Source of the DNA: Qipengyuania sp. JC766
GTDB taxonomy: Bacteria > Pseudomonadota > Alphaproteobacteria > Sphingomonadales > Sphingomonadaceae
Length of the DNA: 64,000 bases
Assembly (NCBI RefSeq): GCF_040717445.1
Contig: NZ_JBFEFL010000001.1
Location: 1,178,001-1,242,000 of the forward strand
Direction of reading: 5' to 3'
This document shows, piece after piece, positions 35,296-40,528 of the stretch (positions are counted from its first letter, which is position 1; each line of letters starts with the position of its first letter). The notes under the pieces are model-generated. The model worked only from the letters and a program-made list of their open reading frames with translations, was not told the origin of the DNA and made no database searches. The position numbers and the translations under genes are program-made.

Positions 35296-35460
35296 TTATC
35301 CACAGGGTGAGTCCAAGCGGACTCCGCGTCAAGCACGAAGTCATCGCAGCGTATGGTTAACGCCGCGATAACCAGAGGGAACGAAAGGAGTCCGGCACAA
35401 GATGTTGAGTCCGCCTCACTCTGCAGGACTCGACATCTGGGGGTGTTGCGCCGGGGACTC
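35296..35460. promoter_or_regulatory. ccrM upstream region: DnaA box, six GANTC sites, CtrA-like site
   Basis: A perfect DnaA box TTATCCACA lies at 35296-35304. GANTC sites start at 35309, 35320, 35388, 35407, 35427 and 35456: six in 152 bp. TTAA-N7-ATAA at 35357-35371 is one mismatch from the CtrA pattern. All lie within 190 nt upstream of the ccrM ATG (minus strand), with no gene between. In Caulobacter ccrM is controlled by CtrA and by methylation of leader GANTC sites. Confidence 0.7.
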
Positions 35461-35480: not shown

Positions 35481-36416
35481 TCAGGCTGGTGCGAGCTCCG
35501 GGTCGATGCCGGTCAGTTCGATCGACTTGTCCCAAAGGCGTTTCGCAAGCTCCGGATCGCGCGCGGTCTTGGTGGCGTAAGCCCTGCCCGAGCGTTTGCC
35601 GCTCATTTCGCGGAAACCGTAGGGGCCGTAATATTCGCCGCCTTCGGCCTCCGGATCGGTCGCTGCCTGCAATGCGGGCAGCGCACCATGCGCAGCGGAA
35701 TTGAGCACCAGGCCGACGAACGAGCCGAACACACCGCCCAGCGGGCCCATGTGCCGCGTCAGGTCCGTCTGCGCGATGCCGGGATGGCACGCCATGGACC
35801 GCACGCTCGATCCGGCGGCAACCAGCCTTCGGTCGAGTTCCTTGGCGAAGAGCAGGTTGGCAAGCTTGCTCTGGCCGTAGAACTCGCCCTTGGCATAGCC
35901 TTGCTCGGCGTCGAGATTGTCGAAGTCGATATCCGCGCCCTTGTGCGCGATGGAGGACTGGGTGACCACGCGCCCGCCCCCGTCCTGCGACAGCTTGTCC
36001 AGCAGCAGGCTGGTAAAGGCGAAATGGCCCAAATGATTGACGGCAAACTGCATCTCGCACCCGGCGGTCGCATGGCCGAGCGGCGGGAACATGATGCCGG
36101 CATTGTTGACCAGAATGTCGATCCGGTCTTCCTTTGCCGCCTTTTCCGCTGCGTCGCGCACCGAGGCGATGTTGGCGAGGTCGAGCGGGAGGAATCCGGT
36201 ATCGGCGCGTTCCGGGCCCGATCCGATGTCGGCCTGCGCCGCGGCCGCCTTGTCCGCATCGCGGCAGGCGAGCAGCACGCGGGCGCCCTTGCGGGCCAGT
36301 GCGCGGGCGATTTCCAGCCCTATGCCGGTATTGGCACCGGTGACGATGGCGGTCTTGCCGCCGAGTTCGGGAATGTCGGAATAGGAAAAGGGCACGGCGG
36401 GGGATACTCCTGGCAT
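35481..36416 (-). CDS. Short-chain dehydrogenase (retinol dehydrogenase-like SDR)
   Basis: This 311-residue SDR has TGANTGIGLEIARALARKGA (cofactor), VLLACRDADKAAAA (Arg after strand 2, NADP type), LVNNAGIM, VTQSSIAHKG and YGQSKLANLLFAKEL (catalytic Tyr/Lys). The pattern is that of eukaryotic-like retinol/WW-domain oxidoreductases. ATG at 36416 is used, but GTG at residue 8 has a better-placed GGAG; the N-terminus is uncertain. It lies downstream of the antiporter genes with a 62-nt gap. Confidence 0.9.
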   Translation of the reverse strand: MPGVSPAVPFSYSDIPELGGKTAIVTGANTGIGLEIARALARKGARVLLACRDADKAAAAQADIGSGPERADTGFLPLDLANIASVRDAAEKAAKEDRIDILVNNAGIMFPPLGHATAGCEMQFAVNHLGHFAFTSLLLDKLSQDGGGRVVTQSSIAHKGADIDFDNLDAEQGYAKGEFYGQSKLANLLFAKELDRRLVAAGSSVRSMACHPGIAQTDLTRHMGPLGGVFGSFVGLVLNSAAHGALPALQAATDPEAEGGEYYGPYGFREMSGKRSGRAYATKTARDPELAKRLWDKSIELTGIDPELAPA

Positions 36417-36478
36417 GGGGATATGCCAGACCAATGGCCGGCCCGCCCGCGCGTTCCGCGAGCGCCGCCGCGCGCGTC

Positions 36479-37417
36479 TTAGTTGTAGAGGACCACCATC
36501 GCGGTATTGGCGACGAACCCGGCCAGCAGCAAAGCGCCCATGACCCGTCCGATCCGCTTTCCATAGGCACACAACAGATAGACGAGAACGGCCGCCGCAA
36601 CCATGACGGGCCATTCGATATCCAGCAGCTCGCTCGGAATTGCCGTCGGCGCGATGGTCATGGTCGCGCCGCCGATCAGCAGCAGGTTGAAAATGTTGGA
36701 GCCCACGACATTGCCTATCGCCAGGCCCGACTGGCCGCGCAGGGCCGCCGCGACGCTGGCCGCGAGTTCGGGAAGCGACGTTCCCACCGCCACGATGGTG
36801 AGACCGATCACGGTTTCGGCGATCCCGGCATTTTCCGCCAGTTGCACCGCGCCTGTCACCAGCCACTGCCCGCCAAAGACGAGCGCTGCGACACCGGCTG
36901 CAAAGACCGGAACGGCAACGACGAGGCGCGTCGGCGCACCCACGTCCTCTTCCGCGTCCTCCACCAGGGTCTTCGCCGGGTGGCGGATGCGCCAGATGAC
37001 GTAGATCACGATCAGGGCCAGCAGTACCGCGCCGATCCAGCCCGCGGCCCAGCCCGACCACGCGATACCCCAGACCAGCGCGCCGGCCAGAACGCCGACC
37101 ACCGCATCGCGCTTGCCCGCGCCCGTCAGCGCGATCGGCGCGACCATTGCCGCGGCGCCGAGGATCAGGAGCGAGTTCGCGATATTGGACCCGGCAATGT
37201 TGCCCCAGGCGATTTCCGGCGAGCCGGTCAGCGCGGCCTGCACGCTGGCGACCATTTCCGGCATGGACGTTGCCGATCCGACGATCACGACGCCCGTGAC
37301 CAGCGTCGAGATGCCGAGCCGCTGCGCGATGCCGACACTGCCGCGCACCAGCAGTTCGCCGCCGATAGCGAGGCCGGCGAGCCCCGCCAGGATCAGGATC
37401 GCGATGGAGAGCGTCAC
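36479..37417 (-). CDS. Calcium/sodium antiporter, CaCA family (YrbG-like)
   Basis: This 312-residue protein has ten membrane helices with the two inverted alpha repeats of CaCA exchangers: GSATSMPEMVAS ... GNIAGSNIAN and GTSLPELAAS ... GNVVGSNIFN, whose Glu residues bind the cation. A short acidic loop (VEDAEEDVGAP) separates the halves. The GTG start at 37417 overlaps the nhaA stop in a GTGA, so the Na+/H+ and Ca2+/Na+ antiporters are one unit. It is probably an inner-membrane exchanger using the sodium gradient. Confidence 0.93.
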   Translation of the reverse strand: MTLSIAILILAGLAGLAIGGELLVRGSVGIAQRLGISTLVTGVVIVGSATSMPEMVASVQAALTGSPEIAWGNIAGSNIANSLLILGAAAMVAPIALTGAGKRDAVVGVLAGALVWGIAWSGWAAGWIGAVLLALIVIYVIWRIRHPAKTLVEDAEEDVGAPTRLVVAVPVFAAGVAALVFGGQWLVTGAVQLAENAGIAETVIGLTIVAVGTSLPELAASVAAALRGQSGLAIGNVVGSNIFNLLLIGGATMTIAPTAIPSELLDIEWPVMVAAAVLVYLLCAYGKRIGRVMGALLLAGFVANTAMVVLYN

Positions 37418-38607
37418 GCTTTGCGTCCGCGCAGCAGCAGCAGGACGCCGAGAATGGCCGCGACGATCGAACCGGACAGCACGCCCAGCTTCACCGCGTT
37501 GATCTGCGCCGGATCGGCAAAAGCAAGGTTGCCGATGAACAGGCTCATGGTGAAGCCGATACCGGCGATCAGCGACAGCCCCCAGACCTGCGACCAGCCG
37601 ATGCCACGCGGCAATTTCGCGATCCCGCTCTTCACGGCGAGCCAGGCGAAGCCGACGATGCCGATCTGCTTGCCCAGCAGCAGGCCGAGCGCGATGCCCA
37701 GCGGCAGCGGTGCGAGGACCGCGGCCGGCTCCATGCCTTCGAAGGAAACGCCCGCATTGGCGAGCGCGAAGATGGGCACCACCAGGAACGCGACCCAGGG
37801 GTGCAGGTCATGCTCCATGCCCTCCAGCGTCGGATTGCCGCGCCGGTCCTCCAGCGGGATGCACATGGCGAGCGCCACGCCCGCGAGCGTCGCGTGGACG
37901 CCCGACTTGAGGACGAAGAACCAGAGCGCGACGCCCAGGATCATGTAGGGAATGGCGGACCCGAACCGCATCCACCCGCAAAAGGCGAGAACGGCGAGGA
38001 CGATGGCGGCGTAGCCCAGCATCACCGTCTCGACACCGGGCGTGTAGAACAGCGCGATGATGGCGATCGCCCCGATATCGTCGATGACCGCGACTGCCAG
38101 CAGCAGCGCCTTCAGTGCGACCGGCACCCGGCTGCCGAGCAGGGCGAGCACGCCGAGCGCAAAGGCGATGTCGGTCGCGGCCGGGATCGCCCAGCCCTGC
38201 AGGTTTTCCGGCGATCCCAGGTTGACGCCGACGAAGATCAGCGCCGGCGCGATCATCCCGCCGATGGCGGCGAAGATGGGGAGCGAGGATTGCTGCCAGC
38301 TCGACAGCTGGCCGATCAGCACCTCGCGCTTCACTTCCAGCCCGACGAGCAGGAAAAACAGCGCCATCAGCCCGTCATTGATCCACAGCAATGCGGACTT
38401 GCTGACCCCTTCGCCGTTCACGGTCACCGATACCGGCGTGTCGAGGAAAGCGAGATAGGCAGGCGCGAGCGGGCTGTTGGCCCAAATCACCGCCACCGCC
38501 GCCGAAATCATCAGCAGGATGCCGCCGGCGCTTTCCTGTTGCAGGAAATCCTTCATCGACCGGGCAGCTCTGGCAAGGACGGCGGGCGGTTTGGGTGCGG
38601 GCGTCAT
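37414..38607 (-). CDS. nhaA: Na+/H+ antiporter NhaA
   Basis: This 397-residue protein has 12 helices. The sodium-site aspartate pair is in AVAVIDDIGAIAI, and the second-helix region has PAATDIAFALGVLALLG. The N-terminus has LLWINDGLMALFFLLVGLEVKREVL, typical of NhaA. It expels Na+ in exchange for protons. ATG at 38607 (MTPAPKPP) is preferred over a longer frame. The GTGA overlap with the calcium antiporter suggests a salt-handling operon, in line with a marine or brackish habitat (inference). Confidence 0.96.
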   Translation of the reverse strand: MTPAPKPPAVLARAARSMKDFLQQESAGGILLMISAAVAVIWANSPLAPAYLAFLDTPVSVTVNGEGVSKSALLWINDGLMALFFLLVGLEVKREVLIGQLSSWQQSSLPIFAAIGGMIAPALIFVGVNLGSPENLQGWAIPAATDIAFALGVLALLGSRVPVALKALLLAVAVIDDIGAIAIIALFYTPGVETVMLGYAAIVLAVLAFCGWMRFGSAIPYMILGVALWFFVLKSGVHATLAGVALAMCIPLEDRRGNPTLEGMEHDLHPWVAFLVVPIFALANAGVSFEGMEPAAVLAPLPLGIALGLLLGKQIGIVGFAWLAVKSGIAKLPRGIGWSQVWGLSLIAGIGFTMSLFIGNLAFADPAQINAVKLGVLSGSIVAAILGVLLLLRGRKA

Positions 38608-38664
38608 GGACGCAGTCCTTAGCCGCCTGAGCCGTTCAGGCAAGCAAAGTCGGAACCGCCGGAG

Positions 38665-39288
38665 TCAGAGCAGTTCCAGCTGCGCGACCGGCGCGAAACT
38701 GCGCCTATGGAGCGGGCTGGGCCCGTGCGAGCGCAACGCTGCCATGTGCTCCGCCGTGCCGTATCCCTTGTTGCGTTCCCAGCCGTACTGCGGATGGTCG
38801 CGCGCCGCCTCGCACATCAGCCGGTCGCGCCATTCCTTCGCTACGATGGACGCGGCCGAGATGCACGGCTCCAGCGCATCCCCGCCCACGATGGCGCGGG
38901 CGGGCCAGTTCCATTCGGCGCAGCGGCCGTGCGGCGTCATGTTGCCGTCCACCAGCACTTGGTTCGGCGGCGCGGAGGCACGGGTGCAGAGCGATGCCAC
39001 CGCGCGGGTCATCGCCAGCATGGTCGCGCCAAAGATGTTGATGCGGTCGATCTCTTCCGGCCCGACGACGCCGACGCCCCAGACGCAGTTCGCCCGGATT
39101 TCGAGGTCGAGCTTCGCCCTTCGCGCGGCGGTCAGCTTCTTGGAATCGTCCAGTCCCTCGGGGCACGGATCGCACAGCACTACTGCGGCGGCGACCACCG
39201 GCCCCGCCAGCGGACCCCGTCCGGCCTCGTCGACGCCCGCGATGCCCGGCGTGGCACCAAATAAACTTTTGTGCGTATTGGAGAGCAT
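38665..39288 (-). CDS. rnhB: Ribonuclease HII
   Basis: This 207-residue enzyme removes RNA from RNA-DNA hybrids, including single ribonucleotides. Catalytic acids are visible in [14 protein letters not shown] (Asp-Glu), then [18 protein letters not shown] (Asp), and [13 protein letters not shown] (Asp). The ATG at 39288 lies inside the same CATG as the divergent start of the PQQ dehydrogenase-like gene, leaving no leader on either side. No ribosome site is visible, so a leaderless or internal promoter is likely. Confidence 0.95.
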
Positions 39289-40528
39289 GAGCAGACCGTC
39301 GAACAGAACCTTCGCCCTCCTCCTTTCGCCTCTCGTGCTCGGTGCCGCAAGTTGCGACACCTCCGCGACCGGGGACAGCGCCGCCGCGCCGACCTCGACA
39401 CCCGGCCCCGCCACGGGCGGCGGAGGCGGCGAAGGCCCGCCCAATGCCGGCAATTCGCCGGTCACCGGCAACCCGCCCTTCGACCGGCGCACGGTCGGCA
39501 GCTTCGACGAGCCCTGGGCCCTGGCCTTTGCGCCGGGCACATCGAACCTGTTCGTGACCGAACGTCCCGGCACCATGAAATTCGTCGACACGCGCAGCGG
39601 CCAGGTCGGCACGGTCACGGGCCTTCCTGAGGTCGATTACGGCGGCCAGGGCGGCCTCGGCGATGTCGCCTTTCTCCAGTCCGAATCGAAAGCGGAGCTT
39701 GGCGGCCGGACGATCTACCTGAGCTGGGCCGAGGCTGGTTCGGGCGATACGCGCGGGGCCGTGGTCGGTCGCGGCACGCTCGAATGCGGATCGGCGACGT
39801 CGTGCAATGTGGAAGGCCTGCAGGTCATCTGGCGCCAGGATCCCAAGGTCACCGGGCGCGGCCACTATTCGCACAAGATCGCGTTCTCGCCGGACGAGCA
39901 GTACATGTATGTCGCCAGCGGCGATCGGCAGAAGCAGGACCCGGCGCAGGACACCTCCAATACGCTCGGTTCCATCGTTCGGCTCAACCTCGACGGCTCG
40001 CCCGCTTCGGGCAACCCGCTGGCGGGGCAATCCGGCGCTTCGGACGAGATCTGGTCCTACGGCCACCGCAACACGCTCGGCCTACAGTTCGACACGCAGG
40101 GCCGGCTCTGGAACCTGGAGCATGGCCCGGCGGGCGGCGACGAACTCAACCTCGTCGAGCGCGGGGTGAATTACGGCTGGCCAGTCGTCTCCTATGGCGA
40201 CAACTACAATGGCTCGCCGATTCCGCGCCACCCGACACGGCCCGAGTTCCGCGAGCCCGCGATCTACTGGACCCCGGTGATCGCGCCCGGCGATTTCATC
40301 TTCTACTCGGGCAACGCTTTCGATGCCTGGCGCGGCGATGCCGTCATCGCCAACCTCAAGGTAGAGAACATCGTCATCGTGGACGTCAGCGGGAATACAG
40401 CCCGCCAGACGGCGCGCTATTCTTTCGACCGCCGGCTTCGCGATATCGCGCAGGCCCCGGACGGGACGATCTGGATCGCCGCCGATGGCGACAACGCACC
40501 GCTCTACCACCTGACACCCAAGAACTGA
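39287..40528 (+). CDS. PQQ-dependent soluble aldose sugar dehydrogenase-like lipoprotein
   Basis: This 413-residue protein has lipoprotein signal ([17 protein letters not shown], Cys about 23), a Gly/Pro linker (about 30-60) and a six-bladed propeller of the GSDH/YliI type. Motifs include [60 protein letters not shown] and [21 protein letters not shown], the PQQ/calcium-site signatures. It would oxidise aldoses in the periplasm, passing electrons to the chain. Its ATG shares CATG with rnhB. Confidence 0.92.

Follow-up and report, generated by a model that had tools for sequence, protein, structure and literature searches.

The DNA upstream of ccrM in Qipengyuania sp. JC766 appears to be a real and strongly conserved ccrM promoter, and we infer from sequence comparison that it is methylation-gated and of the Caulobacter kind in its working. 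Its predicted architecture is a core with GANTC sites set into a -35/-10 geometry, found well beyond the family, to which lineage-specific additions are joined; the DnaA box and the upstream repeat appear to be family-specific.

The ccrM locus and its GANTC cluster

The gene in question encodes a CcrM-type orphan adenine methyltransferase with an N6_N4_Mtase domain (PF01555, E 5e-64) and a C-terminal RAMA domain (PF18755, E 4e-19), in agreement with the earlier note on this DNA, which had named it ccrM from the sequence. Its product is 77-87% identical to 80 Erythrobacteraceae homologues. Since the region of interest is flanked by ccrM and by a co-oriented upstream gene whose reading frame ends at 35481, it was treated as the ccrM promoter region (Table 1). 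In many other alphaproteobacteria, the DNA directly upstream of ccrM resembles the end of rnhB, as read by eye. Within the window (the whole 64,000-nucleotide stretch analysed), genes at 35481-39618, named by eye from their translations, are calcium/sodium-antiporter-like, NhaA-like, and SDR-like and separate ccrM from an rnhB-like gene (38665-39618). We compared the region with three sets: (i) 80 Erythrobacteraceae ccrM loci, (ii) 82 other family members, and (iii) 94 genomes across the class Alphaproteobacteria. The compared sequences share phylogeny; therefore, all locus counts given here overstate the independent evidence.

Table 1. Features of the ccrM promoter region, in window positions
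Feature	Position	Strand	Basis
ccrM, GANTC adenine methyltransferase, 378 aa	34138..35274	-	PF01555 plus RAMA domain; homologues
DnaA box TTATCCACA	35296..35304	+	Predicted -7 to +2; conserved in Erythrobacteraceae
Predicted -10 CACCCT (cAnnnT)	35304..35309	-	17-bp spacer; conservation
GANTC abutting -10, last base = predicted -12	35309..35313	-	14 bp after TTGAC
GANTC in -35/-10 spacer	35320..35324	-	Kept as unit, central base variable
Predicted -35 TTGACG (within CTTGAC)	35327..35332	-	Columns at least 99% identical, 81 sequences; class-wide motif
CtrA-type site TTAT-N7-TTAACCAT	35353..35371	-	TTAACCAT begins at -63; motif conserved
Upstream inverted-repeat block	35376..35460	-	GANTC 35388, 35407, 35427, 35456; 30 invariant columns

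Six GANTC sites, starting at 35309, 35320, 35388, 35407, 35427, and 35456, lie within 152 bp, and these, the perfect DnaA box, and the TTAA-N7-ATAA element were all found where the earlier note had placed them. The hexamer at all six sites is GAGTCC/GGACTC, which that note did not remark on. Its background rate of about one GANTC per 300 bp was not borne out: the window holds 72 sites (1 per 889 bp), whereas dinucleotide shuffles predict 322, a roughly 4.5-fold depletion. CcrM-bearing genomes have been reported to be GANTC-depleted (PMC3973325), and the depletion in the window is consistent with CcrM acting on GANTC. Because GANTC is depleted, six sites in 152 bp are unusual; at the rate seen in the rest of the window, 0.001 such clusters are expected per window, and any other 148-bp stretch of the window has at most two sites. 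The claimed strong excess thus stands at this rate, but not at the rate originally assumed, which gives 0.98.

Conservation is far better support for the cluster, as judged by comparing sequences, than the number of sites. GANTC sites are kept in the 80 Erythrobacteraceae loci, each having two to eight within 220 bp ahead of the aligned start (the locus with two has just 98 bp of DNA upstream), so the proposal passed its first test, that of conservation in close relatives. As to the second concern raised, that transcription might start downstream of all the sites, the predicted start at 35297 was counted inside the site cluster. The six sites do not, however, form the single uniform unit first described; two belong to the core promoter and four to an upstream inverted repeat.

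A core promoter with built-in GANTC sites

In an alignment of 81 sequences, the core CTTGAC-n-GGACTCAcCCTGTGGATAA is nearly invariant, and another block of conservation lies farther upstream. The core follows the pattern TTGAC-n14-GAnTCA-nnn-T, which we read as a predicted -35 element, a 17-bp spacer, and a -10 element of the form cAnnnT, placing GANTC within and beside the -35/-10 region, where it is expected in a GcrA-dependent, methylation-sensitive sigma70 promoter. Transcription from the predicted start would leave a 23-nt leader ahead of the ATG. The predicted -10 is probably weak and far from TATAAT, its placement following from spacing and conservation alone.

All 80 close relatives carry the core (TTGAC, 12-15 bp, GAnTCA), as do 65/82 other family members and 47/94 genomes of the class set, compared with 0.1-0.2 in shuffled sequences; the strict core is therefore missing from half of the class sample. 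In all three groups, the distance from TTGAC to GANTC peaked sharply at 14 bp, the exact value in all 80 Erythrobacteraceae, in 60 members of the wider family, and in 44 class genomes. With 14-15 bp allowed, 47 of the 94 class regions matched; a circular-shift control gave 2.6 (maximum, 10). When the -10 was taken as cAnnnT, the spacer measured 17 bp in 184/192 cores, and T occupied -7 in 46/47 class cores. A search of the whole genome with the pattern TTGAC-N13-15-GANTCA-nnn-T returned two matches, one at ccrM and the other at G000:C1:2160978-2161006 (L215), whereas the reversed pattern returned none; a sequence profile of the core matched at ccrM only.

A second GANTC falls inside the spacer in 157/192 cores, and its distance upstream from the first is nearly always 9-11 bp, roughly one helical turn. 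It is kept whole more often than independent columns would predict (57 versus 31.6, and 19 versus 3.3 in the class set), and its central base may be A, C, G, or T while GA-TC stays, with few one-off decayed sites. Retention of GA-TC as a unit around a varying center points to selection of a methylation motif rather than of a fixed protein site.

DnaA and CtrA sites

The DnaA box, which reads TGTGGATAA on the ccrM strand, has no other perfect copy in the window; allowing up to one mismatch gives five matches, against 3.2 expected. Spanning predicted -7 to +2, it overlaps the last base of the -10 and the start site. It was present in 78/80 Erythrobacteraceae (shuffle, 0.5), at -7 to -4 and in 67 cases exactly at -7, while the two exceptions differ by one change each (TGTGGATAG in L016 and AGTGGATAA in L018). 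Thus, the DnaA element of the earlier note proved to be a conserved box at a fixed promoter position, as a DnaA-regulated promoter would have. Beyond the Erythrobacteraceae, perfect boxes were found in 20/82 other family members (shuffle, 0.3) and 10/94 class genomes (shuffle, 0.7), some in the corresponding position, others at -1, -3, +6, -52, -80, or -125 to -176, in either orientation. These varied positions and orientations suggest that the box may have been gained repeatedly upstream of ccrM. Some sphingomonads (L135, L149, L150, and L163) have no start-site box; in these, the loop of the upstream inverted repeat contains a DnaA-like box instead. Because the box sits on the predicted start, the sequence favors repression by occlusion as the simplest reading. 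DnaA boxes can activate as well.

The TTAA-N7-ATAA element corresponds on the ccrM strand to the CtrA-type site of Table 1, with one mismatch in the first half-site, TTAT. Of the 80 Erythrobacteraceae, 43 carry the motif (TTAA-N7-TTAAC or TTAACCAT; shuffle, 0.4), mostly at -62 to -64; in the wider family it lies at -73 to -75, about one turn further upstream. The suggestion of a CtrA-like site was therefore upheld, the motif being conserved at a fixed position close to the promoter. CtrA was also considered as a stand-in for the core in the core-less class genomes and was rejected (6/47 versus 2/47, p 0.27; half-sites, 9 versus 6, p 0.57).

The upstream inverted-repeat block

The remaining four GANTC sites belong to what is, by its sequence profile, a separate, Sphingomonadaceae-type element private to ccrM: an 85-bp block with 30 invariant columns among 33 sequences and the consensus GAGTC-n-CACACC-n-GAGTC-n15-GACTCAACATCTTGTG-GGACTC-TTTCGTTC. 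The profile matched only this one copy in the genome, and it also matches its own reverse complement. Given this symmetry, our guess is that a dimeric protein sensitive to methylation probably binds the repeat and tunes the ccrM pulse. A second promoter in the block was considered, as GACTCAACAT resembles GANTCAnnnT, and was rejected by eye for want of a TTGAC 14 bp upstream. Among the more distant loci of the class, L189, L193, L201, L239, L253, L256, L257, and L266 have a similar stretch, AAGATnTTGAGTC or GACTCTAnAT, toward the 3' end of the gene upstream; the Sphingomonadaceae block may derive from such a stretch.

Proposed mechanism and alternative explanations

With GANTC sites within the promoter and a DnaA box on the predicted start, methylation and replication can plausibly both gate ccrM. 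In the reading we favor, at somewhat better than even odds, methylation of its own promoter gates ccrM, CtrA activates it, and DnaA blocks it at the start site. Methyl groups on the two core sites would alter the opening of the weak cAnnnT -10 by RNA polymerase, whether or not GcrA takes part. Once the replication fork has passed, these sites would be hemimethylated and ccrM could be transcribed, CtrA bound at -63 would activate it, and newly made CcrM would re-methylate its own promoter and end the pulse. Early in the replication cycle, DnaA at -7 to +2 would block the polymerase, keeping ccrM silent until DnaA is inactivated or removed. The methylation effect could go in either direction; in Caulobacter, methylation activates the ftsZ and mipZ promoters (PMC3708114).

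The region could also be a plain GcrA-sigma70 promoter like Caulobacter mipZ or ctrA P1, in which GcrA on (hemi)methylated GANTC recruits the polymerase and the rest is decoration. We hold this possible but clearly on the less probable side. It would explain GANTC between -35 and -10, GcrA is known to prefer methylated GANTC promoters and to recruit RNA polymerase (PMC3667746), and the genome encodes GcrA (PF07750 matches at G000:C1:2684972-2685586). However, the core was about as common in class genomes without detectable GcrA (10/17) as in those with it (37/77; p 0.59), and this promoter type was not confined to GcrA-bearing genomes among the 94. A permissive rescan of the 17 genomes, several of them 98-100% complete, gave no GcrA over the cut-off; "without GcrA" means none detectable, as a divergent GcrA or assembly gaps could hide the gene and other factors may replace it. 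Co-occurrence thus gives no support to GcrA as the universal reader of the core, and the GcrA reading proposed in the earlier note holds only as a possibility for this genome, not as something needed to explain the conserved core. Near-complete genomes with a CcrM homologue and no detectable GcrA, such as G363, G340, G435, and G410, are places where another methylation reader might be sought. Of similar, tentative standing is a broader view: a widespread, possibly ancestral alphaproteobacterial promoter in which m6A in the spacer and against the weak -10 regulates ccrM through RNA polymerase, with GcrA not needed and DnaA and CtrA sites added later in each lineage.

The methylation-gated reading must also be weighed against conservation of GANTC merely as part of fixed protein-binding sites (GAGTCC). 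All six sites in the window share that hexamer, and those of the upstream block are nearly always GAGTC on the left and GACTC on the right; for these four sites, the fixed-site reading is plausible on sequence grounds. It does not suit the core, where the central base varies, and for the region as a whole we consider it improbable. Less likely still is that the upstream block works at the RNA level, as a structured or leader element, and not as DNA. It does form an inverted repeat, but the consensus fold consists of five nearly invariant pairs with no compensatory changes, covariation between the arms does not exceed permutation in close relatives and is just weak in the wider family, and the predicted start lies downstream of the block. 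In Rfam, no family reached its gathering score (one sub-threshold match, 17.5 versus 36.7 bits). Chance clustering in a GANTC-poor, GC-rich genome, which at 1 site per 300 bp would yield one such cluster per 64 kb, is practically negligible, having been refuted by conservation at fixed spacing across family and class.

Relation to known systems

Methylation autoregulation of ccrM is already known from Caulobacter. There, as cited in PMC2217572 and PMC10073500, ccrM is described as CtrA-activated (as also in PMC3667746) and transcribed from a hemimethylated promoter with two GANTC sites, all points of likeness to the model proposed here. As far as these descriptions go, Caulobacter crescentus ccrM has neither a fixed start-site DnaA box nor a four-site upstream repeat, both of which are present here. 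The idea of a switch denser than the Caulobacter one therefore holds by virtue of the upstream block and not of the core pair, which is widespread. In Caulobacter, promoters with GANTC between -35 and -10 form a timing class of their own (PMC4287350), and ftsZ and mipZ depend on a conserved CGACTC (PMC3708114). The ftsZ, mipZ, and ctrA P1 promoters, all under CcrM/GcrA control, resemble what is proposed here in that a promoter GANTC controls activity; they differ in that here the gene is the methyltransferase's own, and its promoter combines a weak -10 with two GANTC sites in a fixed register. The gcrA promoter of Agrobacterium tumefaciens likewise has six GANTC sites, in 250 bp upstream, and is methylation-repressed; it serves a different gene, and the fixed core geometry is not described in the available part of that report (PMC11514494). 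Brilli et al. (2010) predicted DnaA motifs upstream of ccrM in several alphaproteobacteria, mainly without CtrA sites, the two being largely exclusive (PMC2877005), whereas many Erythrobacteraceae have both here, with the DnaA box at an exact promoter position. In the open-licence literature, searched mostly by keyword, we found no report of the class-wide core geometry, of the core in genomes without detectable GcrA, or of the start-site DnaA box.

How CcrM is confined to the end of replication in alphaproteobacteria is understood mainly from Caulobacter. Half of the class-wide sample has a core in which the sites of the encoded methyltransferase keep a fixed register; this is a concrete and testable element, and it separates the methylation control of ccrM from GcrA. 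In the Erythrobacteraceae, the DnaA box at the predicted start would tie DnaA directly to the methylation clock.
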